Of a stretch of DNA of 64,000 nt, positions 29,999 to 54,568 are shown one piece after another. How positions within the stretch are numbered: the first letter of the stretch is position 1; every line of letters begins with the position of its first letter. Position numbers and translations under genes: made by a program. A model generated the notes under the pieces. That model made no database searches. It saw nothing but the letters and a program-made list of their open reading frames with translations, and was not told the DNA's origin. This DNA is from Gemmatimonadota bacterium (lineage in GTDB: Bacteria > Gemmatimonadota > Gemmatimonadetes > Longimicrobiales > Gaopeijiaceae): positions 1 through 64,000 of the forward strand of contig JAJEBW010000024.1 in assembly GCA_022822325.1 (NCBI GenBank). The letters are read 5' to 3'.

Positions 29999-30010
29999 GG
30001 CGGGGCCCCG

Positions 30011-31417
30011 CTACCGGGTTGAGGACATGGGCGGCTCGTGACGGTGGGCCGCCGCCGCGGAATCCCCGGCCATCGCCGAATCGACCCCCACCGCGCCACC
30101 CGGCAGCTGCGAAATCGCCGCACGCAGATTCGCGTCCGAATCGATCAGGAATTGCGATGAAACCACGACCGTCTCACCCTCGGCGAGCCCCGAAGCGATC
30201 TCCACCATCCCCTCGCTCTCGGTTCCGAGCGCTACCTCGCGCGGCTCGAACACCCCTCCCCCCTTCGCCACGATGACCACCGTGCGCGTGCCGCTGTGCA
30301 GCACAGCCTCGGCGGGCGCCATCACCACATCGGCCGCCCCGCTCGTGCGCACGGCCACGTTCACATACATCATCGGACGCAGCAGCAAGTCCGGATTGGC
30401 GACCTCGACGAATGCGGTCAAGGTCCTCGTCTGCGGATTCACGGCGGGACGGAAGAACAGAATGCGTCCACGCCATTCGCGTCCCGGAAACGCGTTCGCC
30501 TCGATCGCGACGGCCTGCCCTTCGCGCACGTGGCGCAGATCGTCCTCGTAGAACTCGGTCTCGGCCCAGAGGGTGGAGTGGTCGGCGATCTTGAGCACCG
30601 TCATCCCGGGACTGAGCTTCATCCCCTCCATCGAGTCGCCCATCTTGTCAACGATGAACCCCGTAGCGGACGCGAAAACCGTTACCGTTCGCGTAACGTT
30701 GTCCGACTCGGCGAGCACGTCGATCTGCTCCTCGGTCATGTCCCAGTAGAGGAGCCGCTCCCGCGCCGCCTCGAGGAGCGACTGCGCCCGCTCGATCGCC
30801 GCCGGGTACGCACCGCCGTCGCGCAGCCGCCCCACGTACTCCATCGCGCCCAGGAATTCGCGCTGCGTGGTGACCAGCTGCGGGCTGTAGATCTCGAAGA
30901 GCACGTCGCCCCGCGCGACCGTCTCGCCGACGTTGTTGACGCTGGCCCGCTCGATCCATCCCTCGTACTTGGTCTGCACCGAGACGACCCGTTCCTCGTT
31001 GTGCGCCAGGATCCCGACGGTGCGGATGGAGACGGGAAGGGTGCCGCGGTGCACCATTGCCGTGCGCACCGCGAAGTTCTGCAGGAAGGCCTGGCTGACC
31101 CTGATGCCGCCCTCGAGGGGGGCGGCGGCCTCGTCAGCGTAGACCGGTACGAGGTCCATCCCCATGGGGGACTTGCCCGGGCGGTCGGAGGTGTAGTTGG
31201 GGTCCATCGGGGCGCGCCAATGGAGGATTTCGCGCTCGCTCGCCGCGTCGCCCGCCGCCGGATCCGCCTGGCCGGGCATGGCCATCCCCGCATGGGCGCC
31301 GTCTCCGGCCATTCCATCGCCCGACCGGTCCCGCACCAGCCACGCCGTCCCCCCCGCACCGACCACAATCCCGGTCGCCACAAGAAGCACCTTGTGCACG
31401 TTCTTCGTCCCGTTCAT
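30011..31417 (-). CDS. CusB-type RND periplasmic adaptor with heavy-metal-binding domain
   Basis: 468 residues. An N-terminal anchor (VLLVATGIVVGAGGTAWLV) is followed by a His/Met-rich stretch and then the heavy-metal-binding domain MDPNYTSDRPGKSPMGMDLVP, the usual CusB YHS-like box. The membrane-fusion core follows with barrel-sandwich (YEGWIERASVNNVGETV) and hairpin segments. It joins CusA to the outer channel and hands over metal through Met residues. Its ATG overlaps the stop of the channel gene (31414-31417, ATGA). Confidence 0.9.
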   Translation of the reverse strand: MNGTKNVHKVLLVATGIVVGAGGTAWLVRDRSGDGMAGDGAHAGMAMPGQADPAAGDAASEREILHWRAPMDPNYTSDRPGKSPMGMDLVPVYADEAAAPLEGGIRVSQAFLQNFAVRTAMVHRGTLPVSIRTVGILAHNEERVVSVQTKYEGWIERASVNNVGETVARGDVLFEIYSPQLVTTQREFLGAMEYVGRLRDGGAYPAAIERAQSLLEAARERLLYWDMTEEQIDVLAESDNVTRTVTVFASATGFIVDKMGDSMEGMKLSPGMTVLKIADHSTLWAETEFYEDDLRHVREGQAVAIEANAFPGREWRGRILFFRPAVNPQTRTLTAFVEVANPDLLLRPMMYVNVAVRTSGAADVVMAPAEAVLHSGTRTVVIVAKGGGVFEPREVALGTESEGMVEIASGLAEGETVVVSSQFLIDSDANLRAAISQLPGGAVGVDSAMAGDSAAAAHRHEPPMSSTR

Positions 31418-32736
31418 GATCCTTCCTCCTCCGGAAAAGCCGAGCCGATCGCCCGTTCCATCTCCGCCAGCGCCTTCATGTAGTCGGCCCGCAACCGCGC
31501 CAGCCCAAGGCGCACATCGAGCAGCACCTCTTCGCTGTCCAGCAGCTCCAGCACCCCGGTCACCCCGCCCGAATACGCCTCCTCGGTCGCGTGCAGCGCC
31601 TGTTCCGCCTGTGGGAGCAGGGCGCGCTCGAAGAGGGCCAGCTGCCCTTCGATCGTCGTGATGCGAAGCGCTGTCGACCGAACGGCCAGCCCCACCCCGC
31701 TGACCACGTCCCGGTACGCTTCCTCCGCGGCGGAGAGTCGCGAGGCTGCTTCCCGGACCCCCGCGTCGTAGCTGCCCCTGAAGACGGGGATGCTGGCTCC
31801 GAGCGTGAGGCTGTACGTATCCCGCCCGTTGTCCGGCGGCGGATTCGCCAGGCCCGGGTCGTCGCGGCGGCCCAGCACGTTGCCCCAGGCGACACCGACG
31901 GTGAATTCGGGCCGGTACCGCCGCCGTGCCAGGCTCACCCCGTGCTCGTCGCGCTGAATCCTCATCCGCGCCGATCGCACCTCGGGCCGCTCGCCGATCC
32001 CCATCGCCCGCAGCCGGTTGCCGTCCAGCGACACCGCAGGCCGCGCCACGATCGACACTGGCGGCACCCGCGTTTCCACCGGCCGGTCCGCCAGCACGTT
32101 CAGCACGGCCTCGAAGTCCGCGCGCTGCCGCAGCAGTTCCTGGCGGCGGTTCAGAACCCGCGTGACCTCGGCCTGGAGCTTGACGACCTCCTGCTGCTGC
32201 CCGAAGCCCTGCGAGTAACGGGCCCGGGCCAGTGCTTCGTAGTGGAGGAGGAGCTGCTCTTCCTCGCCAGTGATCCGGAGCGCCTCATCGAGGTAGGCGA
32301 GGTCGTAGTAGGCCAGCTTGACCTGACGGACGACTTCGGCCCGTTGTTCGCGGTACGACTCGCTCTGCAGCGCCGACCCGGCCGCCGCGATCGACCGGCG
32401 ATCCGACAGCGTCCCCGGCCACGGCAGGGTCTGGCTGACCGAAATGCTCGAAAGCTGGGGACCGACACGCGTCTGGGGCCCGATGACGTGCTGGGTGAAC
32501 GACAGCGACGGATCCGGCAGGGTCGCGGCCTGCTCGACGCGCGACTCGGCCGTGCGGTTCTCCAGGAACGCGGCGCGAATGCGCGGGTTGCCCTCGAGTG
32601 CTTCGCGGATGAGCGCGGCCAGGGCCGGGTCGCCATGGGTCGCATGGGACGGCGACTGCGCCTCCGCACGCGGTGCAATGATGTATGCCGATACGGCGAT
32701 CGCGGATGCGACCGCCATGGTTCGCAGGTTTGACAT
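31414..32736 (-). CDS. TolC/CusC-type outer membrane efflux channel
   Basis: 440 residues with a signal peptide (VASAIAVSAYIIAPRAEAQ). It has the TolC internal duplication: long helical segments such as TLPDPSLSFTQHVIGPQTR and the paired IPVFRGSYDAGVREAASRL and LELLDSEEVLLDVRLGLAR. It forms the trimeric outlet for CusAB. First gene of the three-gene core; a small secreted protein gene ends at 32845, 108 bp upstream, in the same direction. Confidence 0.88.
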   Translation of the reverse strand: MSNLRTMAVASAIAVSAYIIAPRAEAQSPSHATHGDPALAALIREALEGNPRIRAAFLENRTAESRVEQAATLPDPSLSFTQHVIGPQTRVGPQLSSISVSQTLPWPGTLSDRRSIAAAGSALQSESYREQRAEVVRQVKLAYYDLAYLDEALRITGEEEQLLLHYEALARARYSQGFGQQQEVVKLQAEVTRVLNRRQELLRQRADFEAVLNVLADRPVETRVPPVSIVARPAVSLDGNRLRAMGIGERPEVRSARMRIQRDEHGVSLARRRYRPEFTVGVAWGNVLGRRDDPGLANPPPDNGRDTYSLTLGASIPVFRGSYDAGVREAASRLSAAEEAYRDVVSGVGLAVRSTALRITTIEGQLALFERALLPQAEQALHATEEAYSGGVTGVLELLDSEEVLLDVRLGLARLRADYMKALAEMERAIGSAFPEEEGS

Positions 32737-33213: not shown

Positions 33214-33646
33214 GGGTAAAGGTGGGTCGAGAACGGTTCGCCCGTCAACTCGAAAGGTGGCGGGCACCGGCGGCGAGGAGGAGGCGGCGGCTACGCTGGT
33301 CTCGCTCAGGGAGCGCGGCTTCCTGGTTCCACAGGGCAGGGGCAGAGGTAGGAAATACGGATTGGCGCGCCGCTACTCAGGGCGTTGCTCAGGGCTTGTA
33401 GATCGGACCAGCGTCGATGGAGACATCTGGCTCGATGAGGAATCCGTCAGACTTCGACTGCTCGCGGTTCTGCCGGAACGCGGCCGGCTGACCAACGCCG
33501 AGATCCGGCGCCTGTCGGGCTACTCCAGGACGCAGGTCCTGAAGCTGATGCGCTCGCTACGCCGGGAGGGCCTGGTCGAGGTCAGAGGGCGCGGCCGGGG
33601 TGCCCACTACGTGCCTGCATCGGGGCACGGTCGGCGCCTGGAATAG
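33212..33646 (+). CDS. Winged-helix protein fragment
   Basis: 144 residues if read from ATG 33212. The first 15-20 residues look random. Residues about 25-55 (TLVSLRERGFLVPQGRGRG) match the end of a winged helix. Residues about 75-140 form a full second one: LLAVLPERGRLTNAEIRRLSG, then YSRTQVLKLMRSLRREGLVEV and RGRGRGAHYV. Tandem winged helices of this type are usual at the C-terminus of AlbA_2/Schlafen-type ATP-binding regulators, whose N-terminal part is absent. It is therefore probably the tail of a broken gene. It overlaps the next pseudogene's dead 3' end. Confidence 0.45.
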   Translation: MGKGGSRTVRPSTRKVAGTGGEEEAAATLVSLRERGFLVPQGRGRGRKYGLARRYSGRCSGLVDRTSVDGDIWLDEESVRLRLLAVLPERGRLTNAEIRRLSGYSRTQVLKLMRSLRREGLVEVRGRGRGAHYVPASGHGRRLE

Positions 33647-33681
33647 ACGGCTGTTCAGCCCGGCCTCGATCATGACATCCA

Positions 33682-34001
33682 TCAGGTCGTGGTGGGATGC
33701 GGCCCGCCGGCGATGACGGGAACCCCCGCGCGGTTGCAGCGCTCAACGACCTGCTCGAGCGAGGGCGCTGCGGAATCATTGTCGACGTGAAGGCCAGGTC
33801 CGCCCACTCCAGGTCGTCGTCTTCGAGTGGGGTCACGTTGAGGTCGACCACGCGCAGGTTGTACCGGGACGGGAACATCGCGGCGACGGTGAGCAGGCCG
33901 AGAGGAGGGAACACCGCCTTGATGCCCTGGAGGTCAAGAGCGTAGTTGTTGCCCCAGTAGGTGGGAGGCTGTTTCGGGTAGACGAGGAGGGCGTTCGACA
34001 T
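33682..34001 (-). pseudogene. Frameshifted N-terminus of a B12-binding radical SAM protein
   Basis: From ATG 34001 the frame reads NALLVYPKQPPTYWGNNYAL, then FPPLGLLTVAAMFP and NLRVVDLNVTPL, the standard start of a cobalamin-binding radical SAM protein. It stays good to LAFTSTMI near 33776. The expected continuation (PSLEQVVERCNRAGVPVIAGGPHPTTT) appears in another frame down to a stop at 33682. The cluster-binding CxxxCxxC domain is missing entirely. This is a truncated and frameshifted relic. Confidence 0.7.
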
Positions 34002-34022
34002 GGTCTACGAGCAGTCCACGGG

Positions 34023-36581
34023 CTATAGCATCGAGGCTCTCCGGTCGCCCTCCGCGAGAAACTTCCGGTACCGGGCAAAGGCCGCGTCGATCGTCTCGCG
34101 CGCCAGCCCGTAGTCCGCGATCTCGTAGCTGTGTCGCGTTTCGGTTCGCCGACGCGCCCGCTGCTCGTCCAGCCATTCATTCATGGCACGCACCGCCTCC
34201 GGCTCCAGCTCCCAGCCGCGGCGCTCGTAGATATGGGCCACGACCGCCATCGGATCCTCCACCAGGTCGTAATAGCTGACGTCGATCCAGCGATCTTCAA
34301 GCTCCGGGCGCGATTCGCGGAAGGCGACGGCGCGGTCCAGCATTCGGCTCATCTCGCGCAGTTGCTCCCGGCCAAGCACATCCCGTGGGCGCGGCTCGCT
34401 GATGTTGGAGCGAATCCGTTCCACGAGGCTGCACCACGATCCCATGAATTGAACCGGCTCGCGGTGCGTCTGAATGAAGAGAGCGTCCGGGTAGGCGCGG
34501 GTCAGCGCCTCGAGCTCCCGCAGGTGCGTCGGCATCTTGAAGAGCCATTGGCCGTTCGCGCCGGGGTGGCGCTCCCTGCGCTGGTACGTGTAGTGCTGCA
34601 TGACGCGACGGTGGTGCCGGTAGGCTTCGCGCGAACCCTTTGCATCCAGCCAGCGATTGTACGCGGGAATGTGGTACCTCGTGGCGAACATCCAGGCCCG
34701 GAAGGACAGTCGCAGGATCGGGATGTCCTCTTCGGGTTCGTCGATGTCGATGTGGTGGATTCCGGCAAAGGAATCGATGATGCCGGAGGCTTCGAACACA
34801 TCGGTTGCAAGCGCCCGGCGGGGGTCGTTGGGCGTTCCGGCAAGTCGCGCATAGTCGCCGCCCGGGATCACCGGTTCAACGTATTCGTAGGCCCGCAGCG
34901 CCCAGAACCGCGGATCGCGCGCCATCAGACGGTGCAGATAGGTTGTGCCGGTCCGGTTGATGCCGACGATGAAGACGGGCCGGGCGATCGTCTGTCTTCC
35001 GATTTCGGGGCAACGCTCGCGTTCGGCGGCCAGCTCCGCATTGTTGCGCAACATGCGGCACATGTCGAAGGCGACGTGGCCAATTCGCGTGTCGAGGAGG
35101 CCCGCCTCCGGCGACCTGATTGCCTGGACGAGCCGGGTCATTCCTTCCAGCATCCAGTCCGGGTAGGTGGAAGCGAAGGACAATCCGCGATCGCTTGCAT
35201 AACGCCTCGCCTGCTTGAGCAGGTGTTCGACCTTCAGGCGGCGTTTGGGAAGCGGGTGGGGCCATTCGTCCCGGTGTTTCCGTATCCATCGGTTGTAGCG
35301 GACGTACCGCGTGAGGGGGCCGGGCCAATCGATGGAGCCGAAGAAGTCGTCGCGAATCGCCCGGTCGCCGATCGGCAGGGAAGTCGCCGAGTCGCGGCCC
35401 CGCAGCCAATAGGGAGCGAAGTGGTCGAGCAGAGCCCAGTATCTGGCGAGCGGAGAGGCGTCGCCCCGTGCCTGGCAGGCGCGCTTGAATACCTGGTAGG
35501 AGACTTCCGGGTAGTCCAGGCCGAGCTCCTCGATCCGCAGGGTGCGGTAGGAGGGCGTGGGGTTGAAGCAGTTGTAGATCGTGAAGCGGCGCTCGGGATT
35601 CAGCGAAATGCCGGCGCAGATCCGGCTCAGCGTGTCGACCGGATCGACGTTGGATTGCAGCGTGAAGCCGCGGGGAATCATCCCCGTGTCCACCACCGCC
35701 GCGAAGAGCCGCTGGATGATGTTGGTCGGTTGCGTGTACCCGGTCGACGCCATGCTGGTCTGCGCCAGACGGAAGATTGCCGCGGGCAGGCTGGCGGCAT
35801 GCGCAAAGAGGATCGCCTGTTCAGCGACAAGTTTGCTCCACGGATAGCCAAGGAGTCCCAGGGGGAAGGTCCGCTTCATCCTTGCCAGATCCGGCTGCAT
35901 CTGGTCGTCGATGCGGCAATCCGCGTATTCGCGCGCAAATGAGCAGAAGTACTCGGGGAATATCCCCAGGGTCGAGGCGTGAAACAGGTGCTTGAAGCGG
36001 GTGCGCAGGCAAAGCTCCAGCACATTGCGGATGCCGAAGGCGTTGACCCGGCGAATGCCGGCGTAGGAGGCCGAGAGACTCAGTGAGGCGGCGAAGTGGT
36101 GGACGGCGTCGATCTTTGCGCACAGGGAGCGGAAGCGGGAATCCGAAAGGCCGAAGCGCGGTTCGGCGATGTCTCCGGGGTGCACGCGAATGCGGGACGC
36201 GAAGTTGTCGTTCCAGATCTCGGCGTGTTGCATACTGGCGCGCAGCCGCTCCAGGCCCTCCTCCGGCGCCGTGCCCCGCACGATGCAGTGAATGGTCAGG
36301 GTCGGGGCCTCGGTGAGCAGGTCGCGCAGCAGAAACCGTCCGACGAAGCCGGTTGCGCCGGTGACGAGGAGATGGCGGAAGTCGGCGGGGGGGACGGGGG
36401 GAGCGGGGGGCGCACCGGTGACCGCATCGCGAACGAAGGCGCGCAAGGTGGCGAGATCGCGCTGGCAGTGCGGGGGCAGCGTTCCCTTCAGTGGGGGGGG
36501 GGGGCGGTGCGGGTCGGCCGGGTCGCGGTCGGGGTCACTGGCCCGCCGCCGTCGTGATTCCGGTTTCTGCGCCGGGTGCAT
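34023..36581 (-). CDS. Thioester reductase-sulfotransferase fusion
   Basis: 852 residues. Residues about 65-400 are an NAD(P)-dependent thioester reductase: LLVTGATGFVGRFLLRDLL (NADPH loop), FHASTLGIF for the catalytic Ser/Thr, and YPWSK with Tyr246 and Lys250. Residues about 530-850 are a sulfotransferase (Sulfotransfer_3): VFIVGINRTGTTYLHRLM is the 5'-phosphosulfate loop and TQ/THREPVQFMGSW the 3'-phosphate site. The order suggests reductive release of a PKS-bound acyl chain to an aldehyde or alcohol, then O-sulfation with PAPS. It overlaps the PKS stop by 47 bp. A 12-C tract at 36493-36504 encodes Pro27-30. The first 45 residues are low-complexity, so the true start is uncertain. Confidence 0.85.
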   Translation of the reverse strand: MHPAQKPESRRRRASDPDRDPADPHRPPPPLKGTLPPHCQRDLATLRAFVRDAVTGAPPAPPVPPADFRHLLVTGATGFVGRFLLRDLLTEAPTLTIHCIVRGTAPEEGLERLRASMQHAEIWNDNFASRIRVHPGDIAEPRFGLSDSRFRSLCAKIDAVHHFAASLSLSASYAGIRRVNAFGIRNVLELCLRTRFKHLFHASTLGIFPEYFCSFAREYADCRIDDQMQPDLARMKRTFPLGLLGYPWSKLVAEQAILFAHAASLPAAIFRLAQTSMASTGYTQPTNIIQRLFAAVVDTGMIPRGFTLQSNVDPVDTLSRICAGISLNPERRFTIYNCFNPTPSYRTLRIEELGLDYPEVSYQVFKRACQARGDASPLARYWALLDHFAPYWLRGRDSATSLPIGDRAIRDDFFGSIDWPGPLTRYVRYNRWIRKHRDEWPHPLPKRRLKVEHLLKQARRYASDRGLSFASTYPDWMLEGMTRLVQAIRSPEAGLLDTRIGHVAFDMCRMLRNNAELAAERERCPEIGRQTIARPVFIVGINRTGTTYLHRLMARDPRFWALRAYEYVEPVIPGGDYARLAGTPNDPRRALATDVFEASGIIDSFAGIHHIDIDEPEEDIPILRLSFRAWMFATRYHIPAYNRWLDAKGSREAYRHHRRVMQHYTYQRRERHPGANGQWLFKMPTHLRELEALTRAYPDALFIQTHREPVQFMGSWCSLVERIRSNISEPRPRDVLGREQLREMSRMLDRAVAFRESRPELEDRWIDVSYYDLVEDPMAVVAHIYERRGWELEPEAVRAMNEWLDEQRARRRTETRHSYEIADYGLARETIDAAFARYRKFLAEGDRRASML
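36493..36504. repeat. 12-bp homopolymer (C on the coding strand) inside the reductase-sulfotransferase gene
   Basis: Twelve Gs on the plus strand, read as Cs near codons 26-30 of the minus-strand gene. Tracts of this length are prone to slippage, and a change of one base would put translation from 36581 out of frame. It may be a phase-variation site or a sequencing weak spot. Confidence 0.7.
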
Positions 36582-39500
36582 GATCCGGTGAGCCGTCGGC
36601 CCCGCTCCCTGAGGTGCCGGGCCCGCGCAGGCTACGGCCCTCCATCCCGTTGTCCGTCGCCGTCGCCCCGGTTCCGTTCGGAAAGTGATCCTCGGGTGCG
36701 TTGGCGAAGGGCGAGCGGCGTCTCCGAACCCGCAGCCGAATCTCTTCCGCAGGGCCCCCGGCGCCGTCGGTTGCGGCCGCCGTCTCGTCCTCGTCCGCGG
36801 AGTCGGCCCCGTGCACGATGTTCCGGGCGAGGGAAAGCGCCGAAGCGGTCGTCATCAGCTCGAGCGCGCTGACCTGGTGGTTGAACTGCGTCTGCACGAA
36901 GGCGCCCAACTCGGCGACCGAAATCGAGGTGAGCCCGAAGCTGGACAGCGGCTCGGCCACATCGCCTTCGTCGTGTCCGCACAGCTCCGCGACCTTGGCG
37001 GAGATCTGGGCCACGACGCCCTCCACCGTCAGCTCGCCGCCCGCGTCGACCTCGAACGCGGCCTGATTGTTCAACAGACGGCCGTTGCGCATGTAGTCGG
37101 GCGAATCGACGGTCCAGGGGGGATTCGCGAAGAGCGCGGTGACCAGGTGGTCGTGGTCCGTCATGGCGCGCAGGGCATAGTCGAGATTCGCAATCGCGAA
37201 GTTGGCGCTGACGGTGGTCATGCCCGCCGCGCGCAACATGCGCATGACGTGCAGGCTGCGGGTCGCCATCCCGACCTCGGTGACCGCACCCAGGTTGTAC
37301 GCGAAGCCCGGAAGACCTCGCTTCCGCCGCCAGGCCGCCAACCCGTCCAGAAAGCCGCTGGCCCCGCTGTAGTTGATCTGGCCCAGGTTGCCGAAGGTCG
37401 ATGCGATCGAGGAAAAGAGGACGAAATGGTCGAGATCGAGCTCGGCGGTGGCGTGGTGAAGGTTGAGCGCGCCCTGGGCCTTCGGAGCGAAGACCCGCCG
37501 CAGCGAATCGGGCGAAGTCTCCAGGAAGGACCGGTCCTCCAATGTTCCGGCGAGGTGGAACACGCCCTTCAGAGGTCGCTTCATCTCGTTCACGCAGCGC
37601 TGCACGTCCTCGCGGTTGCGCACATCCCCCGCCACGATCTCGATCTCGAATTCCTGCGTCATCTTCGACAGCGTGGTGTTCCGGCGTATCCACTCCACGT
37701 CGCGGCCGCCGGCGGGATCGCGGTCGATCAGCGTCAGATGGCGTGCACCGGCGGCGATCAGGTACGGTAGGAGGCGGAGGCCGAATCCCCCCAGGCCGCC
37801 GGTGACCAGCCAGGTCGCGTCGGGGTCCAGGAAGGGTCGCGTGTCCGCAACGGCGAATCCCCGCTCGCCAGGGTCCGCGGGCGCCTGCAGAACCAGCTTG
37901 CCCTGGTGCCGGCCCGTCGTCATCAGCCGCAGCGCACCGGCATGGTCGCGGTAGGGAAAGAGCGTCAGCGGCGGCGGCGCGAGCGCCCCTTCGTCCATGA
38001 GGTCCAGGCAGGCCTGGGAGAGGGTGTGCGACAGGACCGGGTCGTCGAGCATCAGACGGTCCACATCGATCGCGGCGAAACGCAGATTCTTGCGGAAGAC
38101 GCGCATGCTGAGCGAGTTGTCGGTGTAGATGTCGACCTTCCCGATCTCGCAGTGCCAGCCGGAGGGCCGCAGCGCCTTCAGACAGAGCGCGATGTGATGG
38201 CCGGCGAGCGAGTTCAGAACCACGTCGACCCCTTCGCCTTCGGTGGCCTCCATCAAATCGTCGTACCAACTGTGGCTGTGCGAATCGAAGGCGCCGCGCG
38301 CGCCCATCTTCAGCAACCGCTCCCGCTTGGCCTCGTTGCCCGCGGTGGCGTAAATCTCCGCGCCGACATGCTTCGCCAGCGCGATCGCCGCCTGTCCGAC
38401 GCCGCCCATCGCCGAATGAATGAGGACCCGCTGGCCCTTCCGCAGGCGGGCAAGGTGAATCAGCGCGTAGTAGGCGGTGACATGTACGGACAGCGCCGCC
38501 GCGGCCTCCTCCATGCTCAGGCGGGACGGTTTCAGGAAGGCGAGGTGTTCGTTCACCACCACCCGGTTGGCGATGCAGCCGCCCACCGTGAGCGCCACCT
38601 CGTCGCCGACCTTCAGGCGCTTTACTCCGGAGCCCGCGCGCCGCACGGTCCCGCTGGCCTCGATGCCGACCTCGCGGCCCAGGGCGGAGCGCTCGTAGGC
38701 CATCGCGGGCAGGAGCCCCAGCGTGACCATGACGTCGCGGAAGTTGAGCGCGGCCGCGGCGACCTCGACCTCGACATCCGATGGGCCCAGCGACGGCAAC
38801 TCGCATGTCGTCATCCGGAGACCGCTCACCTGGCCGGGGTTGTCCAGGCGCAGCCGGTAGGGGGCGTCTTCCCCGGGCGAAAGGTGTGGGGCGCGCTGCC
38901 GCAGACTGACGATTCGAGGCACCCACGGACGGCCGTTCCTGATCGCCACCTCGCGCTCGCGCAGATCGCAGCGGGCGAGCCGGGCCAGGGCTTCCAGATC
39001 CTGCCGCGCGCCGATGTCCACGAGGCGAAAGTCGATCCGGGTGTCTTCGCCGAGCAGCTCCAGGGCGATGCTGCGCACAGCCCCCCACAGCGCGCTTCCA
39101 CGCGGATCGTCCACGTCGCAGGCCGCGTCGCGGGTCACCACGGTCAGGCGGCAGTCGCGGGTCGCGCTCTCGAGCCGCAGAGGCACCAGGGCCTGGAGGA
39201 AGGCCACAACCCGCCAGACCGCCTTTTCGCCGGTGGGATCCTCCGGGTCGGCGGCGACCAAGAGGTCGATGGCTTCCACCGCTCCCGCGTCCGGCCCTTC
39301 GTCAAGCCAGGCAAAGTCGCCCGCTTCGAATGTGGACCAGGGGACATGATGCACCTCGGCCGAATCGAGCAGATCGACCCAGGCCGATGCCAGGGTGTCC
39401 GGTTCCCCGATCACCCAGCGGGGGCGCGAAGCGCGTCTTTCGAACCCTTCGTCCCCGGCCCTCCCTTCCCCCGCTCTCTCCACCCCTTCCGCGCGATCGT

Positions 39501-42500
39501 GGCGGTCGGGCGCCTGCACCAGCGTCGTCCGCGAACCCTTGTGAAGCGTCGTCCAGCCCGCGCCCAACTCAACCTCATCCTCCTCTTCGTGGCAAACCAA
39601 CGCGAGACCGCCGTCCACCAGCAGCCGCTGGACCAGCCCCCACTGCCCGGCCCCAAAACCGCAGGCTTCCCGGTGCAGCAGCGCCACCTCGGCCGCCGCC
39701 GGTCGCAGGAGTCCCGAAGTCATCTCCGGCTCGCGGTCATCGACAGCCATCGGATCAAGCGAATCGAACCGAATCGCCGCGTCATGGTGGTTGAAGGCGT
39801 CGTAGAGCGCGCGCGTGCACTCATCGTCTTGGCCCAACAGCCAGTACTCGCTCTGTGCATCCGCGCCCGAGAGTCGTTCAAGACACCGGTTCAGAATGGC
39901 GTCGCCGGGCTCCCGCCCACCCGCGATCTCGATCAGACGGCAGGCGTGGCGATCGCCGAAGGCTCCCTCCTCAAGCGCCGCGATCAACGCTTCGGGATCG
40001 ACCTCGCCATTGCGGATTGCGTCCCCGACCGGGGGCGTCGGCGGCAGGAATTTGGGCTGCCAGCGAATCTGGTGCTTGCTGTCCGGAACATCGCTCCAAC
40101 GAGGGTTGCTGTTGAAGCAATGATGCTCGCCGATGTGCGCGATCAACTCTCCCGTCGCCCGGTCGTAGAAGCTGGGGCTGCCGACGTACACTTCGCCGAG
40201 GGGCTTGTTGTACTGGCCGCGTTCGTCCACGTCGAACCAGTCGCCGGTGTCGGCCACGTAGCAAACGATCCGCGGTCCCGTCGGAGGACGCAGGAAGGTG
40301 ATGTCGCGGGCCCGCTGCGGCACGGAAAAGAAGTCCGGCAGCCGCATGAGATAGCGGAGGAAGATCTGCAGCCCGGCATCGATCAGCGCAGGATGGAGGA
40401 GATAGCCCTCGTCGCGGCCGGTGGCCCACAACTCGTCCTCCAGCTCGATCTCCAGCAGCATGTCCGTCGAAGCCGAATCCATGTCGATCTGCCGGATTCT
40501 GCGGAACTGGGGACCGAATTCGAATCCGTCGCCCACCACCGCTTCGACCCGATCATAGAACTCTTCCCCGGTCGCGAGGGGTTGGGGATCGAAGTCGGAG
40601 CCCAGGACATCCCCCAGCGTCGGGGGAGCGTTGACGGGATGGTCCTCGTTCACCCGCCGAACCCTGCCGCGGCAATGCAGCGTCCCCTCGTCGTCGTCCT
40701 CGAAGGAACGCGTGGAGATGGTGAAGGTGAACCGATCCGGCGCGTTGGGGACCGGGAAGAGGGCCGTCTGCAACCTCACCGGCGTCTCGCCGACCGGCGT
40801 GTGCTGCAGGTACTCGATCTCGTCGATATGGACGGGGTCTCCGGCGAACGCCTGCACGATCAGCTCGATGTAGCCGGCCGCGGGAATGATCGACGCCCGG
40901 TGCACCCGGTGGTCGGCCAGCCAGGGGAAGTCCCGCTCGGAGAGCCGCGCCTCGAAGAGGATGTGGTCGCAGGGAACTCGGTGGCCGACGAGGGGGCCGT
41001 GCGAGTACTCGCCGCGCTTCACGAACATCTCGTCGTCGGCCAGATCGTTGCGGGTGGTCGTCTGCTCCTGCGGATGGCCGGGGAGGAGATGGGCGATGGG
41101 TCTCGGGCGCGGATACTGGGAAGCGAAGTCCAGCTCGACGCCGCTCCGGTACAGCGCGCCCAGCGCCTCCTGGAAACCGAGGCGCACATCCTGATCCTTC
41201 ATGAAGGTGGGGATGCACGCCGGGGCCGAGGGGCCGCCCTCCACGCACTGGCGAATGAGTGGTTGCAGCGCGCCGTGCGGTGCGATCTCCAGCACGATGT
41301 CGGGGCGGTGGTCCCGCGTCACCGTCTGCATGGCCGCGGCGAAGCGAACGGGCTCCCGGATGTTGGACCACCAGTACGCGGCGTCCAGGCGCTCGGGCAC
41401 TTCGCCCGTGACCGAGGACACCATCGGCACATCGGCCTCGAAGTCACGCGGGTTCGCGGAGTCCGGATTCGCGGCGCCCGGGTCCGAAAAACCCGGATCG
41501 AGAAAGGACAGCGATGCCATCACATCGGTGTGCAGGGGGTCCATCGCGGTGGAGTGGAAGGCGATGTTGCCGGGGATCAGCCGATTCTGCAGGTCGCGGC
41601 GGTCGAGCTCGGCGATGACGGGCTGGAGCGCGGCCTCCCTTCCGCAGACGACGGTGTTGGCGGGGGAATTTTCGCAGGCGATCTCGACCCGGGCCGGTCC
41701 GTGGCCTTCGGAGCGGAAGGAAACGCCGATTTCGTCCAGCAGCTCCTCCACGCCCGCCCGGTCGAGTCCAATCGCCAGCATCCGGCCGGAGCCCGCCACC
41801 CGTTGCTGGAGAGTGGCGCGGTGGTAGACCAGGTGAGTGGCTTCGGCAAGCGACAGCGCTCCGCAGGCGTAGGCGGCGGCCACCTCGCCCGAGCTGTGTC
41901 CGACAACGCAGTCCGGTTGCACGCCCCAGGTCGACAGGAGCTCGACGAGGGCGCACTGAATCATGAAGATGGCGGGCTGAGCGAGTTGGACTTCGTTCAA
42001 CTCCTCCTGGCTCGCCGCAAAGCAGGCCTCGCGCAGCGACACGCCGGAATGCTTGCGCCACTCCGCTTCGATGGCGTCCACCACGCGGCGGAAGACGGGA
42101 TCGGCGTCGTAGAGCGCCCGTCCGCACCCCGCCCACTGCGTACCCTGGCCGGAGAACACCATCGCCACCCGTCGCTCGCCTGGCTCCACGACGGAAACGG
42201 GGGACGGATCGTCCGCGAAGGCGTCGAGGGCCGCCGCGAGCTGGGCCCGGTCGCGCACGGCGAAGGCGGCCCGCGCGGGAAAGAGGCTGCGACGGCGAGC
42301 GAGATTGCCCGCCAGGGTGTAAAGGTCGAAATCCCCTTTGTCGAAATCACCCTTGTCGATCTGTCTCTTGTCCCGGTTCCGTTTGTCGAGAACCTCGCGC
42401 AGGCTGCGCGCGCTTTCCCCCAGGGCGTTCGCGGTGCGCGCCGAAAGCGGGACCATGTACCCGGCTCCGGGCGCCAGCGGCGCCGACCACGCTCTCGGTC

Positions 42501-43818
42501 GCTCCGGCCGGTATTCCCGCACCACGCAGTGCCCGTTGGCGCCCCCGAACCCGAAGGAGTTGATCCCGACCACGACCGGTCGCTCCGGGAAGGGCTCGCA
42601 CGCGGTCTGCACCTGCATCGGGCAGCTCTCGAAGTCGATCTCCAGATTCGGCGCCAGGAAGTTCTTCGATATTGGCGCAAAGGTGCGCCGCCGCATCATG
42701 AGGACGACCTTGAGCAACGCCGCGCCGAAAGCCGCCGCCTCCAGGTGTCCCACATTGCTCTTCACGCTCGCCACCCGCAGCGGAACCTCGCGCTCGAACC
42801 CCCCGAATGCCTCCGCAATCGCATTCCCCTCGATTCGGTCGCCCACCACGGTGCCGGTTGCGTGCGCCTCGATGTAGTCGATCTCCTCCGGCCCCAGCCC
42901 CGCGCGGGCACAGGCCGTCCGCATCAGCTCAACCTGCGAGTGGCGGGTCGGCGCGGTGATGTAGCGCCCCTGAGCCAGCCCGGCTGCGTCGTCGGCGGCC
43001 CCGGCCGTGTTGACCGCGGTGGCCTCGATGACCGCGAAGATGCGGTCGCCCTCCCTCTCGGCCGCCTCCAGCGGCTTGATCGCGAAGACCAGCGTCCCCT
43101 CGGCGCGCATGTACCCGTTGGCGTCGGCGTCGAAGGAATGGCACCGGCCATCCGGACTGATCACCCCCAGCGCATTGAACGACGCGCTGCAGCGGGCGGA
43201 ACCCAGATAGGCTGCGGCCCCCACCAGCGCTCGCTCGCAATCGCCCTGCCGAATCGAGTTCACCGCCGTGTGGAGCGCGGTCAGCGACGCCGAACAGGCC
43301 GTGGAGCAGGCGATCGACGGCCCCATCAGATTCAGGTGATAGGAGATCCGGTTGGCCAGCATCGATGCGTCGATGCTCAGTATGGAGAACTCGTTGGTCC
43401 CGTACAGCGCCCGCCAGTTGGCGGTTGACGCAACCTGCGCCCCGATGAAAACGCCGGTAGGGCTGTTGCGCAGTGCGTGCAGGTCCCACCCGGCGTGTTC
43501 GCAGCTCTCCCATGCGCAACCCAGCAGCATCCGGATCTGCGGATCCATGTTGGCCATCTCGTTGCGCGACACGCCGAAGAGGCCGCGATCCATCCGCTGT
43601 TCGCCGTCGTCGCGGATCAACCCTTCATAGGCGCTGCCGAAGCGTCCCGGACCCGAGAATTCCCCGATCGGGCGATAGCCGCGGCCGTAGCGGTCGGTCA
43701 CCGGTTCGCGCACGATCTCGCGCTCGCTGAGGAGCCGCCAGAAGTCGTCGTCGGTGACGATGCCGCCGGGCATGCGGTAGGCGTACCCGACGATGGCGAC
43801 GGGTTGCTTGGAGGTCAT
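36535..43818 (-). CDS. Highly reducing type I polyketide synthase, one complete module
   Basis: 2427 residues. Ketosynthase 1-440 with Cys175 (STACSAS), His319 and His358 all present. Acyltransferase about 545-880 with GHSSG Ser642 and AFHS at 753-756, a malonyl-type pattern. Dehydratase about 935-1235 with His970 (LADHRVH) and Asp1147 (HPALIDAGL). Linker/structural KR part about 1290-1650; no methyltransferase motif seen. Enoylreductase about 1660-1965 with HSAMGGVGQAA. Ketoreductase about 2000-2190 with TGGLGGFG, Ser137-type FSSIAS at 2135-2140 and Tyr2150. ACP about 2265-2340 with Ser2298 in FGLTSIS (Asp of the usual DSL is Thr). It should build a fully reduced alkyl chain, probably iteratively. 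No loading or thioesterase domain; release by the next gene. Confidence 0.93.
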   Translation of the reverse strand: MTSKQPVAIVGYAYRMPGGIVTDDDFWRLLSEREIVREPVTDRYGRGYRPIGEFSGPGRFGSAYEGLIRDDGEQRMDRGLFGVSRNEMANMDPQIRMLLGCAWESCEHAGWDLHALRNSPTGVFIGAQVASTANWRALYGTNEFSILSIDASMLANRISYHLNLMGPSIACSTACSASLTALHTAVNSIRQGDCERALVGAAAYLGSARCSASFNALGVISPDGRCHSFDADANGYMRAEGTLVFAIKPLEAAEREGDRIFAVIEATAVNTAGAADDAAGLAQGRYITAPTRHSQVELMRTACARAGLGPEEIDYIEAHATGTVVGDRIEGNAIAEAFGGFEREVPLRVASVKSNVGHLEAAAFGAALLKVVLMMRRRTFAPISKNFLAPNLEIDFESCPMQVQTACEPFPERPVVVGINSFGFGGANGHCVVREYRPERPRAWSAPLAPGAGYMVPLSARTANALGESARSLREVLDKRNRDKRQIDKGDFDKGDFDLYTLAGNLARRRSLFPARAAFAVRDRAQLAAALDAFADDPSPVSVVEPGERRVAMVFSGQGTQWAGCGRALYDADPVFRRVVDAIEAEWRKHSGVSLREACFAASQEELNEVQLAQPAIFMIQCALVELLSTWGVQPDCVVGHSSGEVAAAYACGALSLAEATHLVYHRATLQQRVAGSGRMLAIGLDRAGVEELLDEIGVSFRSEGHGPARVEIACENSPANTVVCGREAALQPVIAELDRRDLQNRLIPGNIAFHSTAMDPLHTDVMASLSFLDPGFSDPGAANPDSANPRDFEADVPMVSSVTGEVPERLDAAYWWSNIREPVRFAAAMQTVTRDHRPDIVLEIAPHGALQPLIRQCVEGGPSAPACIPTFMKDQDVRLGFQEALGALYRSGVELDFASQYPRPRPIAHLLPGHPQEQTTTRNDLADDEMFVKRGEYSHGPLVGHRVPCDHILFEARLSERDFPWLADHRVHRASIIPAAGYIELIVQAFAGDPVHIDEIEYLQHTPVGETPVRLQTALFPVPNAPDRFTFTISTRSFEDDDEGTLHCRGRVRRVNEDHPVNAPPTLGDVLGSDFDPQPLATGEEFYDRVEAVVGDGFEFGPQFRRIRQIDMDSASTDMLLEIELEDELWATGRDEGYLLHPALIDAGLQIFLRYLMRLPDFFSVPQRARDITFLRPPTGPRIVCYVADTGDWFDVDERGQYNKPLGEVYVGSPSFYDRATGELIAHIGEHHCFNSNPRWSDVPDSKHQIRWQPKFLPPTPPVGDAIRNGEVDPEALIAALEEGAFGDRHACRLIEIAGGREPGDAILNRCLERLSGADAQSEYWLLGQDDECTRALYDAFNHHDAAIRFDSLDPMAVDDREPEMTSGLLRPAAAEVALLHREACGFGAGQWGLVQRLLVDGGLALVCHEEEDEVELGAGWTTLHKGSRTTLVQAPDRHDRAEGVERAGEGRAGDEGFERRASRPRWVIGEPDTLASAWVDLLDSAEVHHVPWSTFEAGDFAWLDEGPDAGAVEAIDLLVAADPEDPTGEKAVWRVVAFLQALVPLRLESATRDCRLTVVTRDAACDVDDPRGSALWGAVRSIALELLGEDTRIDFRLVDIGARQDLEALARLARCDLREREVAIRNGRPWVPRIVSLRQRAPHLSPGEDAPYRLRLDNPGQVSGLRMTTCELPSLGPSDVEVEVAAAALNFRDVMVTLGLLPAMAYERSALGREVGIEASGTVRRAGSGVKRLKVGDEVALTVGGCIANRVVVNEHLAFLKPSRLSMEEAAAALSVHVTAYYALIHLARLRKGQRVLIHSAMGGVGQAAIALAKHVGAEIYATAGNEAKRERLLKMGARGAFDSHSHSWYDDLMEATEGEGVDVVLNSLAGHHIALCLKALRPSGWHCEIGKVDIYTDNSLSMRVFRKNLRFAAIDVDRLMLDDPVLSHTLSQACLDLMDEGALAPPPLTLFPYRDHAGALRLMTTGRHQGKLVLQAPADPGERGFAVADTRPFLDPDATWLVTGGLGGFGLRLLPYLIAAGARHLTLIDRDPAGGRDVEWIRRNTTLSKMTQEFEIEIVAGDVRNREDVQRCVNEMKRPLKGVFHLAGTLEDRSFLETSPDSLRRVFAPKAQGALNLHHATAELDLDHFVLFSSIASTFGNLGQINYSGASGFLDGLAAWRRKRGLPGFAYNLGAVTEVGMATRSLHVMRMLRAAGMTTVSANFAIANLDYALRAMTDHDHLVTALFANPPWTVDSPDYMRNGRLLNNQAAFEVDAGGELTVEGVVAQISAKVAELCGHDEGDVAEPLSSFGLTSISVAELGAFVQTQFNHQVSALELMTTASALSLARNIVHGADSADEDETAAATDGAGGPAEEIRLRVRRRRSPFANAPEDHFPNGTGATATDNGMEGRSLRGPGTSGSGADGSPDHAPGAETGITTAAGQ

Positions 43819-44232: not shown

Positions 44233-44577
44233 TCAGTCGCCGAGAGCCGCGAGCGCCGCGTCGCGCGATTCGTGAACATCGATAATCCGGTCGAAGCCGC
44301 TGATCGCGACGACCTCGCGGTTGAGTTCCGAGAGCGAGCAGATCGCGAACCGCTTTCCCGGTTTGGCGAAGCGCTTGGCGATGACGAGGCACACCCGCAG
44401 GCCGGCGCTCGTAATCATGGAGACCCGTTCGAAATCGAGAACGAGCTTGCGATCGTCGGGACCGAGTCCATCCTCCAGCAGTTCCTGGAAGTGATCGGCG
44501 CTTCCGCTGTCGATACGGCCCAGAAGAATGGCGACGAGGGTATCGCCCGACCTGATCCACTTCAGGTCGATGGTCAT
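44233..44577 (-). CDS. STAS-domain anti-sigma factor antagonist-like protein
   Basis: 114 residues from ATG 44577; an upstream in-frame start at 44622 adds unlikely residues. It is a complete STAS domain: DTLVAILLGRIDSGSADHFQ, then KLVLDFERVSMITSAGLRVCL with the usual phosphorylatable Ser before AG, and KRFAICSLSELNREVV. In partner switching such proteins bind an anti-sigma HATPase unless phosphorylated. The upstream gene encodes a permease fused to a degenerate HATPase domain, a natural partner. Downstream are the small protein and the PKS, which it may help control. Confidence 0.8.
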   Translation of the reverse strand: MTIDLKWIRSGDTLVAILLGRIDSGSADHFQELLEDGLGPDDRKLVLDFERVSMITSAGLRVCLVIAKRFAKPGKRFAICSLSELNREVVAISGFDRIIDVHESRDAALAALGD

Positions 44578-44695
44578 GTCGTTGGCCTTTGTAGAGGCTT
44601 GGAGTTCCCTTCCCGGATCCACCGCCCCCGCCCGTCCCGCGTTCGCCGGAGCCTTCGGGGAGACAGGGCGCCGCTTGCGTGAACGGCAAGACGGA

Positions 44696-44898: not shown

Positions 44899-46677
44899 TC
44901 AGGATCGCCGAGGGCTGCGGTCCGGTTTCCGCCGCGCCACCTCGACCGTGAGAATGTCAACGTTGCGGTACTCGCGGTGCCTCACCGAAGAGGCATGGTG
45001 GCGAAGCAGCGACAGCGACAGATCGCGCTCGCTGGTTGGATCCGGATGGTCGCCCAGCAGCATCGCCTGGTTTTCCAGGTTGCCCTCCCGGGTGGCGGCG
45101 GTGAACTCCAGCACGGCGCCGTCCCGCGCATTCCAGGCGGCCACGCGCAGCCGCCGTCCCGCGGCGACCGGGGCGTGCTCATCGTCCTCTTGGCGCAGGA
45201 GACTCACCAACGCCTCTTCGGACGCTGCCCGCAGCCGCTCCGTCGCTCTGGTTCCCCATCCATGGCGGCTTGCAAGATCGACCACGAAACGATCGAGTTC
45301 GGGGAGGCTTCCGGCGCGAAGGGGCATCTCGGTCCTGTGGCGGCGAGGTCCGGTCAGTTGAAGGAAGAGGGTCAGGAGAAGGACCGTGAGACCGCCGGCG
45401 GTCAGGCCGTTCGCCAGCATTCGACCGGTCGGAGTCGCGAGCTGGCCGGGAAAGATGGCCTGGAACTGAATCCCGACGCCGATCCAGAAGGCGAGTCCGG
45501 CAACGAGGGCGCCCTGGCGGGTGACGCTTTCGCGGAAGACGACCTTCATTCCCTGCGCAAAGGTCAGTCCGAAGACGACCGTGAGATAGGCCCCCAGCAC
45601 CGGCAACGGAATCGAGAGGATCAGGGCCACGATCCTGGGCACGAAGGCGAGCGCAACGAGGACGATTCCGATGCACACGCCCACCCTCCGCGCCGCCACG
45701 CCGATTCCCGCCGCCAGGGAGATGCCGGCCGTGTAGGGCCAGGGCGGCAGCACTCCCGCGACGCCGGCGAGCAGTGTGCCGATGCCGCAGGCGTTGACGG
45801 CCCCCTGGACCTTGCGGAAGTCGATCGCGCGGGGCTCTCGGTAGGACAGTCGTTGCATGCGAACCGAATCCGCCACCTGCCGAACCGTGATCACGAAGGT
45901 CACGAAGAGGAAGCCGGGAAGCAGAATCCAGAAGCCCGGGCCGAAGCTCGCGTCCGGAGCGAATGACGGCAGCGCGGGCAGGCCGACCCAGCGGGCATCG
46001 GCGACGCGGCCAAAGTCCACAATTCCAAAGAATGCGGCGGTCGCGCATCCCGCGCCCATGCCGAGCACCGGGGTCCAGGCCCGCACCATCCGTGGGGCGC
46101 GCAGCATCAGACCGACGACGATCAGGATCGTCACGGCGGCGACCGTCGGCGCTGCGGCCGGGTGAGCGTCGTCGGGCACGCGCGTCAGCATGGCGAACCC
46201 CATGGGCATCACCGTCACCGACACGAGTGCGAGGAGCGTACCGGATATCAGCGGCGTAATGATGTGCCGGAGACGCGAAAGGACGGCCGACAGGAAGAAC
46301 TGGCAGATCGCCGATGCGACGACGAGTGCGCCGAGCAGGGGGGGTCCGCCCGTGACCAGAGCCAGAACCGCCACGCCGATGGAAGCGCCGGAAGCGCCCA
46401 TGACGGTCAGGGCGCCGCCGCCGAATGCGCCGACGCGGCCCGCCTGCAGGACCGTGATCAGTCCGCCGATCACCATGCTGGCGAAGATCGCCCAGGACAG
46501 GTAGGCGTCGTCCAGGCCTGCCGTGCGCGCGACGACGGTGGTGACCACGACCACCGGCACGCACACCAGGATACCGACCTGGAGCCCGATCACGAGAGAC
46601 ATCGCACCGGGAGGCCTGTCGTCGGCCGCGTAGCGCAGTCCGGCGCCTTCGGTGCGGCTCAACCGTCGCTTCTCCAT
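44899..46677 (-). CDS. NCS2-type permease fused to a degenerate anti-sigma HATPase domain
   Basis: 592 residues from ATG 46677. Residues about 25-460 form a 12-14-helix nucleobase/xanthine-permease-like (NCS2) transporter, with GALTVMGASGASIGVAVLAL, QVADSVRMQRLSYREPRAIDF and ISLAAGIGVAARRVGVCIGI typical of the family. Residues about 475-585 resemble an RsbW/SpoIIAB-type HATPase: LDRFVVDLASRHGWGTRATERLR followed by ASEEALVSLL where the family has EEALTNAI. The Mg-binding Asn is replaced by Ser, and the Gly-rich lid reads DLSLSLL, so ATP binding is probably lost. NCS2 shares its fold with SulP carriers, which usually carry STAS tails. Here the STAS is a separate gene. Confidence 0.78.
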   Translation of the reverse strand: MEKRRLSRTEGAGLRYAADDRPPGAMSLVIGLQVGILVCVPVVVVTTVVARTAGLDDAYLSWAIFASMVIGGLITVLQAGRVGAFGGGALTVMGASGASIGVAVLALVTGGPPLLGALVVASAICQFFLSAVLSRLRHIITPLISGTLLALVSVTVMPMGFAMLTRVPDDAHPAAAPTVAAVTILIVVGLMLRAPRMVRAWTPVLGMGAGCATAAFFGIVDFGRVADARWVGLPALPSFAPDASFGPGFWILLPGFLFVTFVITVRQVADSVRMQRLSYREPRAIDFRKVQGAVNACGIGTLLAGVAGVLPPWPYTAGISLAAGIGVAARRVGVCIGIVLVALAFVPRIVALILSIPLPVLGAYLTVVFGLTFAQGMKVVFRESVTRQGALVAGLAFWIGVGIQFQAIFPGQLATPTGRMLANGLTAGGLTVLLLTLFLQLTGPRRHRTEMPLRAGSLPELDRFVVDLASRHGWGTRATERLRAASEEALVSLLRQEDDEHAPVAAGRRLRVAAWNARDGAVLEFTAATREGNLENQAMLLGDHPDPTSERDLSLSLLRHHASSVRHREYRNVDILTVEVARRKPDRSPRRS

Positions 46678-46711
46678 ATCCACGATCGTTCCGGAAAAGA
46701 CCAATGACCGA

Positions 46712-47896
46712 CTACGACTTCGGAATCTCCTTCCGCGGATCCACGAAGGGCATGGGCACGACCGTCGCCTCCCGCTCCCCGTCGGGCGTCGCCACCCGCA
46801 ACCGCGTCCCCGTCTCGGCGAACGCGACCGGCACCATCGCATACCCGACATTGCGCTTCAGCCGGGGCGACCAGACCGCCGAAGTCACGACGCCGATTTG
46901 CCCGCCGCCCGCGCCGCCATTCCCTTCGCCCCCCTCTTCGCCCCCGCCCCGCACCGCCCACCGCGTCATGTTCAGATCCAGCGGCGCACCCGCGATCTCC
47001 ACCCCCGCCAGCCGCCGTCGCAGTCCCTCGGCCGCAATCCGCGCCAGCGCCTCCCGCCCGATGAAGTCGGCGCTCTTCCCCCGGTCCACCTGCCACCCCA
47101 GCCCCACCTCGTACGGGTTCGTGTCCAGCGTCATGTCGATCCCGTAGTTGAGGATCCCCGCCTCGATCCGCCGAATGTCCGACGGCCCCGTCGGCGCGAT
47201 CCCCAGGTCTGCCCCCGCATCCATCACCCGGTCCCACAGCTCCACCCCGCGGCTCCCGTCGCGCAGATAGATCTCGTAGCCCACCTCGCCGCTCCATCCG
47301 GTCCGCGTCACCACCACCGGAATCCCGTCCAGCTCCGTCTCCAGGAACCAGTAGTAGCGCAGCGCGAGCACATCGTCCCCAAAGAGCCGGCGCACCACCA
47401 CCTTCGACTTCGGCCCCTGCACCTGCATCGGCGACACATCGGGTTCGCCCAGCCGCACATCGAGCCCCGAATTCAGCGCCACGCCCTTCGCCCACAGCAG
47501 CACGTCGCTGTCCGCCAGCGCCAGCCAGAAGTGGTTCTCGCCCAGCCGCAGCAGCACCGGATCGTTCACGATGCCCCCGTCCTCCGCAGTGATCAACACG
47601 TACTTTCCCTGCCCCACCGCGCACTTCGACAGGTCCCGCGGAGTCAGCATGTTCGTGAAGGCGAAGGCGTCCGGACCGGTAATCTCGACCTGCCGCTCCA
47701 CGCTCACATCCCACACCGTCACCCCCGTCCGCAGCTTCTCGTACTCGGCGTGCAGATCGTCGTAGCGGGTCGGCAGAAACATGTGGTTGTACACCGTGTA
47801 GCTTCGGCATCCGGCCCGCAGGGTGGCGTCGAAGTAGGGGGAACGGCGGAGACGCGCACCACGCTGAATCAGCGCCATGTCGAAGGTCGGTTTCAT
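46712..47896 (-). CDS. DmdA-like GcvT-family THF methyltransferase
   Basis: 394 residues from ATG 47896, with CAGGAG 8 bp ahead. It follows the GcvT fold. The N-terminal part closely resembles DMSP demethylase DmdA as I remember it: YTVYNHMFLPTRY, VWDVSVERQVEITG, LTPRDLSKCAVGQG, GGIVNDPVLLRL, ALADSDVLLWAKG and MQVQGPKS. DmdA moves a methyl group from dimethylsulfoniopropionate to tetrahydrofolate. Many paralogues in this clade act on other methylated compounds, so the substrate is not certain. It sits last in a run of flavoprotein and GcvT genes and 34 bp before the permease, which could import the substrate. Confidence 0.78.
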   Translation of the reverse strand: MKPTFDMALIQRGARLRRSPYFDATLRAGCRSYTVYNHMFLPTRYDDLHAEYEKLRTGVTVWDVSVERQVEITGPDAFAFTNMLTPRDLSKCAVGQGKYVLITAEDGGIVNDPVLLRLGENHFWLALADSDVLLWAKGVALNSGLDVRLGEPDVSPMQVQGPKSKVVVRRLFGDDVLALRYYWFLETELDGIPVVVTRTGWSGEVGYEIYLRDGSRGVELWDRVMDAGADLGIAPTGPSDIRRIEAGILNYGIDMTLDTNPYEVGLGWQVDRGKSADFIGREALARIAAEGLRRRLAGVEIAGAPLDLNMTRWAVRGGGEEGGEGNGGAGGGQIGVVTSAVWSPRLKRNVGYAMVPVAFAETGTRLRVATPDGEREATVVPMPFVDPRKEIPKS

Positions 47897-47972
47897 TCGG
47901 GAAGCTCCTGGGCAAGGCCCGGTTTGGTGTGGCAAAAGCAAGGGCGTAGGGGGGGAAGCAGGTTGCGCGGCC

Positions 47973-49739: not shown

Positions 49740-49752
49740 CCCGGCCTCCGCT

Positions 49753-51393: not shown

Positions 51394-51397
51394 GAAG

Positions 51398-52612: not shown

Positions 52613-52642
52613 CGGTTGCGCTCGGCGTTCACGCACGGGGCG

Positions 52643-53983: not shown

Positions 53984-54568
53984 ATGAACGTCCGGTGGCA
54001 GGACTTCGAGATCACCGGCGAACTCCGCGCCCGTCGCATGGGCCAGCGCGCCCGCTGCCTGTGGCTGACCGGTCTCCCGGCCGCGGGCAAGTCCACGATC
54101 GCCAACCTCCTGGAGCGCCAACTGGCGACCCGGGGCCATCACACCTACCTGCTGGACGGCGACAATCTGCGCCACGGCCTCAACCGCGACCTGGGCTTCG
54201 CCAGAGCCGACCGCGCGGAGAACATTCGCCGGGTGGCCGAGGTGGCGCGGCTCATGGTGGATGCCGGGCTGATCGTGATCGTCGCCGTCATCAGTCCATT
54301 TCGGTCCGAGCGCGACTTCGCCCGCGGCCTCTTCGACCCCGGCGACTTCGTCGAGATCTTCGTGGACGCGTCGCTGGAAAGCTGCATCCGGCGCGACCCA
54401 AAGGGGCTCTACGCCAGGGCGATGCGCGGCGAGATCGGGGACTTCACCGGCATCGACAGCCCCTACGAGCGGCCCGAGCGGCCGGATCTGCGGCTGAATA
54501 CCGAGGAGCTCTCGTCGGCGGAATGCGTCGAGCGGGTGATGGGGAAGCTGGATCGAGTCCCGAGTTGA
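53984..54568 (+). CDS. cysC: Adenylylsulfate (APS) kinase
   Basis: 194 residues from ATG 53984; ATG 53975 also fits. P-loop GLPAAGKST, then DGDNLRHGLNRDLGF, ENIRRVAEVARLM and VISPFRSERD containing the Ser-loop typical of APS kinase. FVDASLESCIRRDPKGLYARA completes the family. It phosphorylates adenylylsulfate to PAPS, the sulfate donor used by the sulfotransferase at 34023. No ATP sulfurylase (cysN/D or sat) is in the window. It is transcribed away from the flavoprotein operon across a 183-bp gap in which I see no clear promoter. Confidence 0.92.
   Translation: MNVRWQDFEITGELRARRMGQRARCLWLTGLPAAGKSTIANLLERQLATRGHHTYLLDGDNLRHGLNRDLGFARADRAENIRRVAEVARLMVDAGLIVIVAVISPFRSERDFARGLFDPGDFVEIFVDASLESCIRRDPKGLYARAMRGEIGDFTGIDSPYERPERPDLRLNTEELSSAECVERVMGKLDRVPS

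Follow-up and report, generated by a model that had tools for sequence, protein, structure and literature searches.

A swf polyketide synthase-sulfotransferase cluster with a damaged swfC in Gemmatimonadota and its probable alkyl sulfate product

Results

Identification of the swf cluster

We found that the window (the whole 64,000-nucleotide stretch analyzed, which is the start of contig C20 in a 94% complete Gemmatimonadota assembly of 3.48 Mb and 49 contigs) contains a new copy of the swf cluster, made up of swfA, swfB and a broken swfC (Table 1). The cluster is conserved and, taken as a family, probably functional, with an alkyl sulfate as the most likely product; we consider it reasonably probable that an acyl chain is made by SwfA, released reductively and O-sulfated by SwfB to give a long-chain alkyl sulfate. 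The swf genes (for "sponge (symbiont) widespread FAS") were originally described in bacteria living in sponges, from pPS11G3, pPSA11D7 and POR_0547-0550 (Della Sala 2013, PMC3908369), with swfA encoding a polyketide synthase (PKS), swfB a reductase plus sulfotransferase and swfC, which is missing from one of these three clusters, a B12/radical SAM protein. Swf-like clusters have also been reported in metagenome-assembled genomes (MAGs) of Nitrospirota, Latescibacterota and Acidobacteriota (PMC9426513) and in 'Thalassonella' (PMC10227082). Since the window genes match swf in motifs, domain order and neighbors, they do not represent the likely new pathway that the initial annotation had proposed: swf has been known since 2013, when conversion of a carboxylate to a primary sulfate was also suggested for it (PMC3908369). 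The sulfated alcohol predicted in that annotation is plausible and agrees with this earlier proposal. We found no paper in the open-licence literature that names the swf product, and swf is an orphan pathway that already has a name. What is new with respect to 2013 is the Gemmatimonadota hosts, the link to sulfate activation and the damage seen in the window assembly.

Table 1. Features of the swf locus and its surroundings in the window.
Feature	Coordinates	Strand	Description	Basis
swfA	36535..43818	-	Type I PKS/FAS, 2427 aa; KS-AT-DH-ER-KR-ACP	Pfam/NCBIfam and signature motifs
swfB	34023..36581	-	852 aa; thioester reductase (residues ~69-400) and sulfotransferase (~530-840)	Pfam, alignment, dN/dS
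swfC remnant	33689..34002	-	First ~105 codons; 1-nt frameshift near 33762; lacks the radical SAM core	
swfC internal scrap	33645..33690	-	46 nt	89% identity to the interior of L010 swfC
Post-swfC scrap	33424..33510	-	87 nt	91% identity to L010 DNA just beyond swfC
STAS gene (anti-anti-sigma type)	44233..44622	-	Upstream of swfA	PF01740
NCS2/xanthine-type permease gene	44899..46851	-		PF00860, TIGR03173
cysC	53984..54568	+	Leftover APS-kinase domain of a CysNC fusion; cysN part and cysD missing alongside	

Architecture of SwfA and SwfB

Both swfA and swfB showed the GC periodicity by codon position that is typical of coding sequence, and the start of swfB overlaps the end of swfA by 47 nt. Pfam domains for KS, AT, DH, ER (ADH_zinc_N), KR and ACP were matched in SwfA, in agreement with the complete PKS module previously claimed for this locus; the strand, which had not been given, is minus. 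SwfA was defined in 2013 by a set of signature motifs, namely DPQI/V in place of DPQQ, HATGT, GHSSGE, IAFH and QCALVEL (PMC3908369), and all five were present in the window protein, the first of them as DPQI. The catalytic motifs of the PKS were likewise present and were kept over an alignment of 12 sequences, in which Ser replaces Asn in the KR of the window protein and its close relatives, and the glycine of the DH HxxxG motif is absent throughout. SwfA is a mono-modular PKS, probably used iteratively. In the 2013 study the SwfA ACP was shown to be phosphopantetheinylated by Svp (PMC3908369). No Pfam match to a thioesterase was found in either SwfA or SwfB, as had been noted before.

SwfB carries a reductase (NAD_binding_4, 7.8e-49, residues 73-320) and a sulfotransferase (Sulfotransfer_3, 4.4e-37, residues 535-793) in one open reading frame, and its best NCBIfam match was the thioester reductase domain TIGR01746, below the cut-off of that model. 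Fifteen SwfB sequences were aligned. In the reductase, the TGATGF.G motif, Tyr246 and Lys250 were invariant, so that both the GxxGxxG and the Tyr-x3-Lys patterns are present. In the sulfotransferase, the 5'-phosphosulfate loop reads GINRTGTT, and the R-T-G-T-T residues as well as the 3'-phosphate residues R707 and S715, aligned to 2zq5, were invariant. With these cofactor motifs kept, the domain is predicted to be a PAPS-dependent sulfotransferase. Within the window genome SwfB was the only match to the Sulfotransfer_3 profile, PF00685 lying outside this search. Compared with locus L010 (L010 and L011 come from genomes of the window's own genus), dN/dS was 0.16 for whole SwfB and likewise 0.16 for its reductase part, with 0.13 for the sulfotransferase part, and both domains are under purifying selection. 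The nearest solved structures were the R domains of MxaA (4u7w/4w4t) and of a Streptomyces PKS (S. coelicolor 8v1x) for the reductase, and mycobacterial 2zq5 (9.5e-41) and STF9 (2z6v, 3.8e-27) for the sulfotransferase. The latter two, together with two weak unrelated matches, were all that phmmer returned for the sulfotransferase at E<=10; no CurM or Ols entry was among them, which supports the distance from CurM/Ols claimed in the initial annotation. The AlphaFold model of SwfB had a mean pLDDT of 60.8, with low confidence in the sulfotransferase half, and was therefore used for fold search only.

The fusion itself could be real or a sequencing or assembly error that joined two genes. The fragmentation of the window assembly into 49 contigs would allow for such an error, but the same fusion is a single frame in 14 homologues of 55-79% identity, including proteobacterial MAGs, and SwfB from two of the 2013 fosmids has it as well (PMC3908369). 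We thus regarded the joining of two separate genes as ruled out, its probability being negligible. The fusion is a single open frame in all 15 sequences of the alignment, which represents two phyla or more. Several irregular cases were observed elsewhere. A second partial sulfotransferase C-terminus (residues 709-842) lies directly after swfB at L002:12613-13014. The SwfB frames on G062:C147 and G065:C183 have in-frame stops (one TGA, and one TGA plus one TAG, respectively), for which decay, an end effect or an error in the sequence may be responsible. On G020:C77, G005:C229 and G006:C41 there are separate ORFs with about 34% identity to the sulfotransferase region of SwfB; genome G005 has this ORF and a cysD-type gene and is without SwfB.

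Distribution and phylogeny

SwfB was common in the window's genus. In an even draw of Gemmatimonadota, it was matched at <=1e-60 in 36 of 395 genomes and 4 of 138 genera. Proteobacterial MAGs had SwfB at 55-57% identity, and in the SwfB tree the Gemmatimonadota were set apart from a group formed by the proteobacterial sequences and L008. Within Gemmatimonadota, SwfB of G010, a member of the window's genus, grouped with that of G125 from another family, and this grouping hints at transfer. Gene order in the family varies, with swfC located between swfA and swfB at L008:8184-9893 and L048:9707-11416.

The swfC remnant

Among the sister genomes whose swfB is complete, most had a full swfC near it. 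The window remnant showed 96% nucleotide identity to L010 swfC over 315 nt with a 1-nt gap (33717-34001 in the whole-genome match), and the distal 87-nt scrap marks the far side of the swfC deletion. A second, near-full-length swfC (574 aa, with B12-binding, radical SAM and DUF4070 domains) is present in the window genome on contig C40 (G000:C40:13174-14898, or L029:7175-8899), with neither swfA nor swfB alongside. The remnant differed from its neighbors in divergence: DNA identity to L010 was 96%, compared with about 81% for the adjacent swfA and swfB, and dS was 0.15, compared with 0.65-0.79. This lower dS indicates that the remnant has a more recent shared history with L010 than its neighbors have, and suggests that local recombination or transfer may have preceded the decay.

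Sulfate activation

The cysC product matched TIGR00455 with 233.8 bits and was most similar to the C-terminal part of PRK05506. Homology to relatives begins at position 53974, at the CysC end of CysNC, and homology of the preceding DAO gene ends about 90 nt away. At locus L062 the order is STAS, cysD and cysNC, with CysN and CysC fused. We found no ATP sulfurylase in the 94% complete window assembly, either as PF01507 (CysD, CysH) or as PF01747 (Sat); the PF01507 control was matched in 14 of 14 reference genomes. Because neither type of ATP sulfurylase was found, cysC alone gives no PAPS from sulfate, and PAPS supply could not be reconstructed in the window genome. Thus, of the PAPS-making cysC that had been reported in the window, the APS kinase at this position is real, whereas cysC as proof of PAPS supply was rejected, CysD, CysN and Sat not having been found.

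Sister genomes provided a different picture. In the genus, 18 genomes had both SwfB and a cysD-type gene, 3 had neither and the two discordant classes had one genome each (Fisher p 0.009, a value that ignores shared ancestry and in which several genomes were counted on SwfB fragments). The two genes were located 5-42 kb apart on one contig in 7 genomes. This retention of cysD and cysNC in sisters, often near swf, points to real sulfation. The strong cysD-type matches in the genus were about 681 bp long, similar to L062 CysD, and we noticed no strong match there of the ~500-bp type, which certain genomes elsewhere in the order have. Judged by length alone, we read the ~500-bp type as CysH, in which case PAPS in the genus would serve sulfation, given that strong matches of CysH length were not seen. 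It is possible, and we suggest it tentatively, that swf is a long-chain alkyl sulfate pathway across symbiont phyla which in this genus travels with its own cysD-cysNC for sulfation and not for sulfur assimilation.

Neighboring genes

The STAS and permease genes are frequent neighbors of swf, the former being also found at L008, G013 and G033 and the latter at G010 and G013; in pPS11G3, ORF18 is the STAS counterpart and ORF17 a permease (PMC3908369). Two GCV_T-type proteins, two CrtO-like FAD oxidoreductases and one DAO are encoded at 46712-53883. The nearest model was DMSP demethylase for one of the GCV_T pair and TMAO demethylase for the other, both below cut-off. Sister genomes also carry this block in the vicinity of swf or cysNC, and pPS11G3 has a similar one. 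On the other side of swf, at 26888-32736, are genes for an RND pump, an HlyD-type adaptor with a heavy-metal-binding domain and an outer-membrane factor (OEP), likely a metal efflux set. A role of this set as exporter of the swf product was set aside because of the heavy-metal-binding HlyD protein and because no close homologues lie beside swf in the relatives examined.

Discussion

Proposed pathway and alternatives

In the pathway that we propose, SwfA, probably acting iteratively, would assemble a malonate-derived acyl chain, for the most part saturated, on its ACP. The reductase of SwfB would then use NAD(P)H to free the chain from the ACP as an aldehyde, probably reduced further to the primary alcohol, and the SwfB sulfotransferase would move a sulfonate group from PAPS to the new hydroxyl, yielding a long-chain alkyl sulfate. 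An intact SwfC would add a tailoring step, for example methylation. Here we infer that SwfA iterates, how long the chain is, that reduction involves four electrons and that the new alcohol is sulfated, as well as any role in the cell. R domains are known to release either aldehydes or primary alcohols (PMC12783407).

We consider it unlikely that reduction ends with the aldehyde, or that the reductase has no redox activity, with the sulfotransferase acting on another hydroxyl or amine of the same chain or of another lipid. The closest solved R domain, that of MxaA, carries out four-electron release. Besides, the fusion of the two SwfB domains in one chain and their joint conservation suggest that the product is handed from one to the other. 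On the other hand, release by two-electron reduction is possible for R domains (PMC12783407), and redox-inactive R domains were also mentioned by the authors of the 2013 study (PMC3908369). Much less probable is the use of sulfate as a leaving group, in which sulfation of a beta-hydroxyl would lead to a terminal alkene as in CurM/Ols. A sulfotransferase domain paired with a PKS recalls CurM, and this parallel was discussed for SwfB (PMC3908369), but the lack of a thioesterase match, the position of the reductase ahead of the sulfotransferase and the absence of a CurM/Ols match at E<=10 all argue against such an outcome.

A further alternative concerns the window organism only and is compatible with alkyl sulfate formation by the family: the pathway may be decaying there, with the chain perhaps still made but left unsulfated. 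We view this as rather unlikely, albeit with evidence on both sides. Next to cysC, both cysD and the cysN part are gone, the search of the assembly for an ATP sulfurylase gave none, the swfC next to swfB is frameshifted and gutted, and the genome, at 3.48 Mb, is smaller than the ~4.2 Mb of most sisters in the genus. However, neither swfA nor swfB is disrupted and dN/dS is low (a long-term measure), and a near-full-length swfC persists on contig C40. Moreover, the swfC and cysDN losses may be assembly errors, and cysD may be located in the missing 6% of the genome. Sulfation of a reductively released chain is the reading that we prefer for swf as a family.

Two mono-modular PKS groups have been described as widespread in marine sponges, and swf is one of them. 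Should SwfB indeed make alkyl sulfates, these would be an abundant and overlooked class of symbiont lipids. Two observations of the 2013 study speak against this reading: no new compound appeared when a complete swf cluster was expressed in E. coli BAP1, and a wide occurrence of alkyl sulfates in sponges was said not to be known, although according to its authors a standard lipid work-up would miss them (PMC3908369). The cysD-cysNC link makes sulfation directly testable and indicates which functions an expression host may need to provide.

Comparison with known systems

The window cluster shares with the published swf clusters the SwfA domain order and motifs and the SwfB architecture, while its B12/radical SAM gene swfC is a remnant beside swfB and near full length on contig C40; its likeness to JX946307/JX946308 was judged by published motifs, domain order and neighbors. 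With pPS11G3, a sponge fosmid, it also shares the surroundings, that is, STAS and permease genes upstream and a FAD-oxidoreductase/aminomethyltransferase block nearby. It differs from the 2013 clusters in that only a broken remnant of swfC adjoins swfB, in that its host genome is placed in Gemmatimonadota by kinship, and in having a cysC leftover. Like swf, CurM and cyanobacterial Ols tie a sulfotransferase domain to a type I PKS; swf is distinguished from them by having no thioesterase, by a reductase that precedes the sulfotransferase and by no phmmer kinship to the solved CurM/Ols sulfotransferases. Mycobacterial Stf proteins (2zq5; STF9, 2z6v) match the SwfB sulfotransferase over its full length, including the PAPS loops, but are stand-alone enzymes without a reductase fusion. 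In 2013, coccidian type I FAS were the only other known proteins with adjacent R and sulfotransferase domains (PMC3908369). Acyl thioesters of very long chains are substrates for the R domain of Cryptosporidium CpFAS1; the authors of that study were unable to distinguish whether an alcohol or an aldehyde was formed (PMC2995488). Both this domain (CpFAS1-R) and the terminal R domains of MxaA and S. coelicolor (8v1x) are Rossmann-type thioester reductases that serve in release, similar to the SwfB reductase. However, R domains of PKS/NRPS systems and of CpFAS1 end the synthase itself, whereas that of SwfB is located on a separate protein together with the sulfotransferase.
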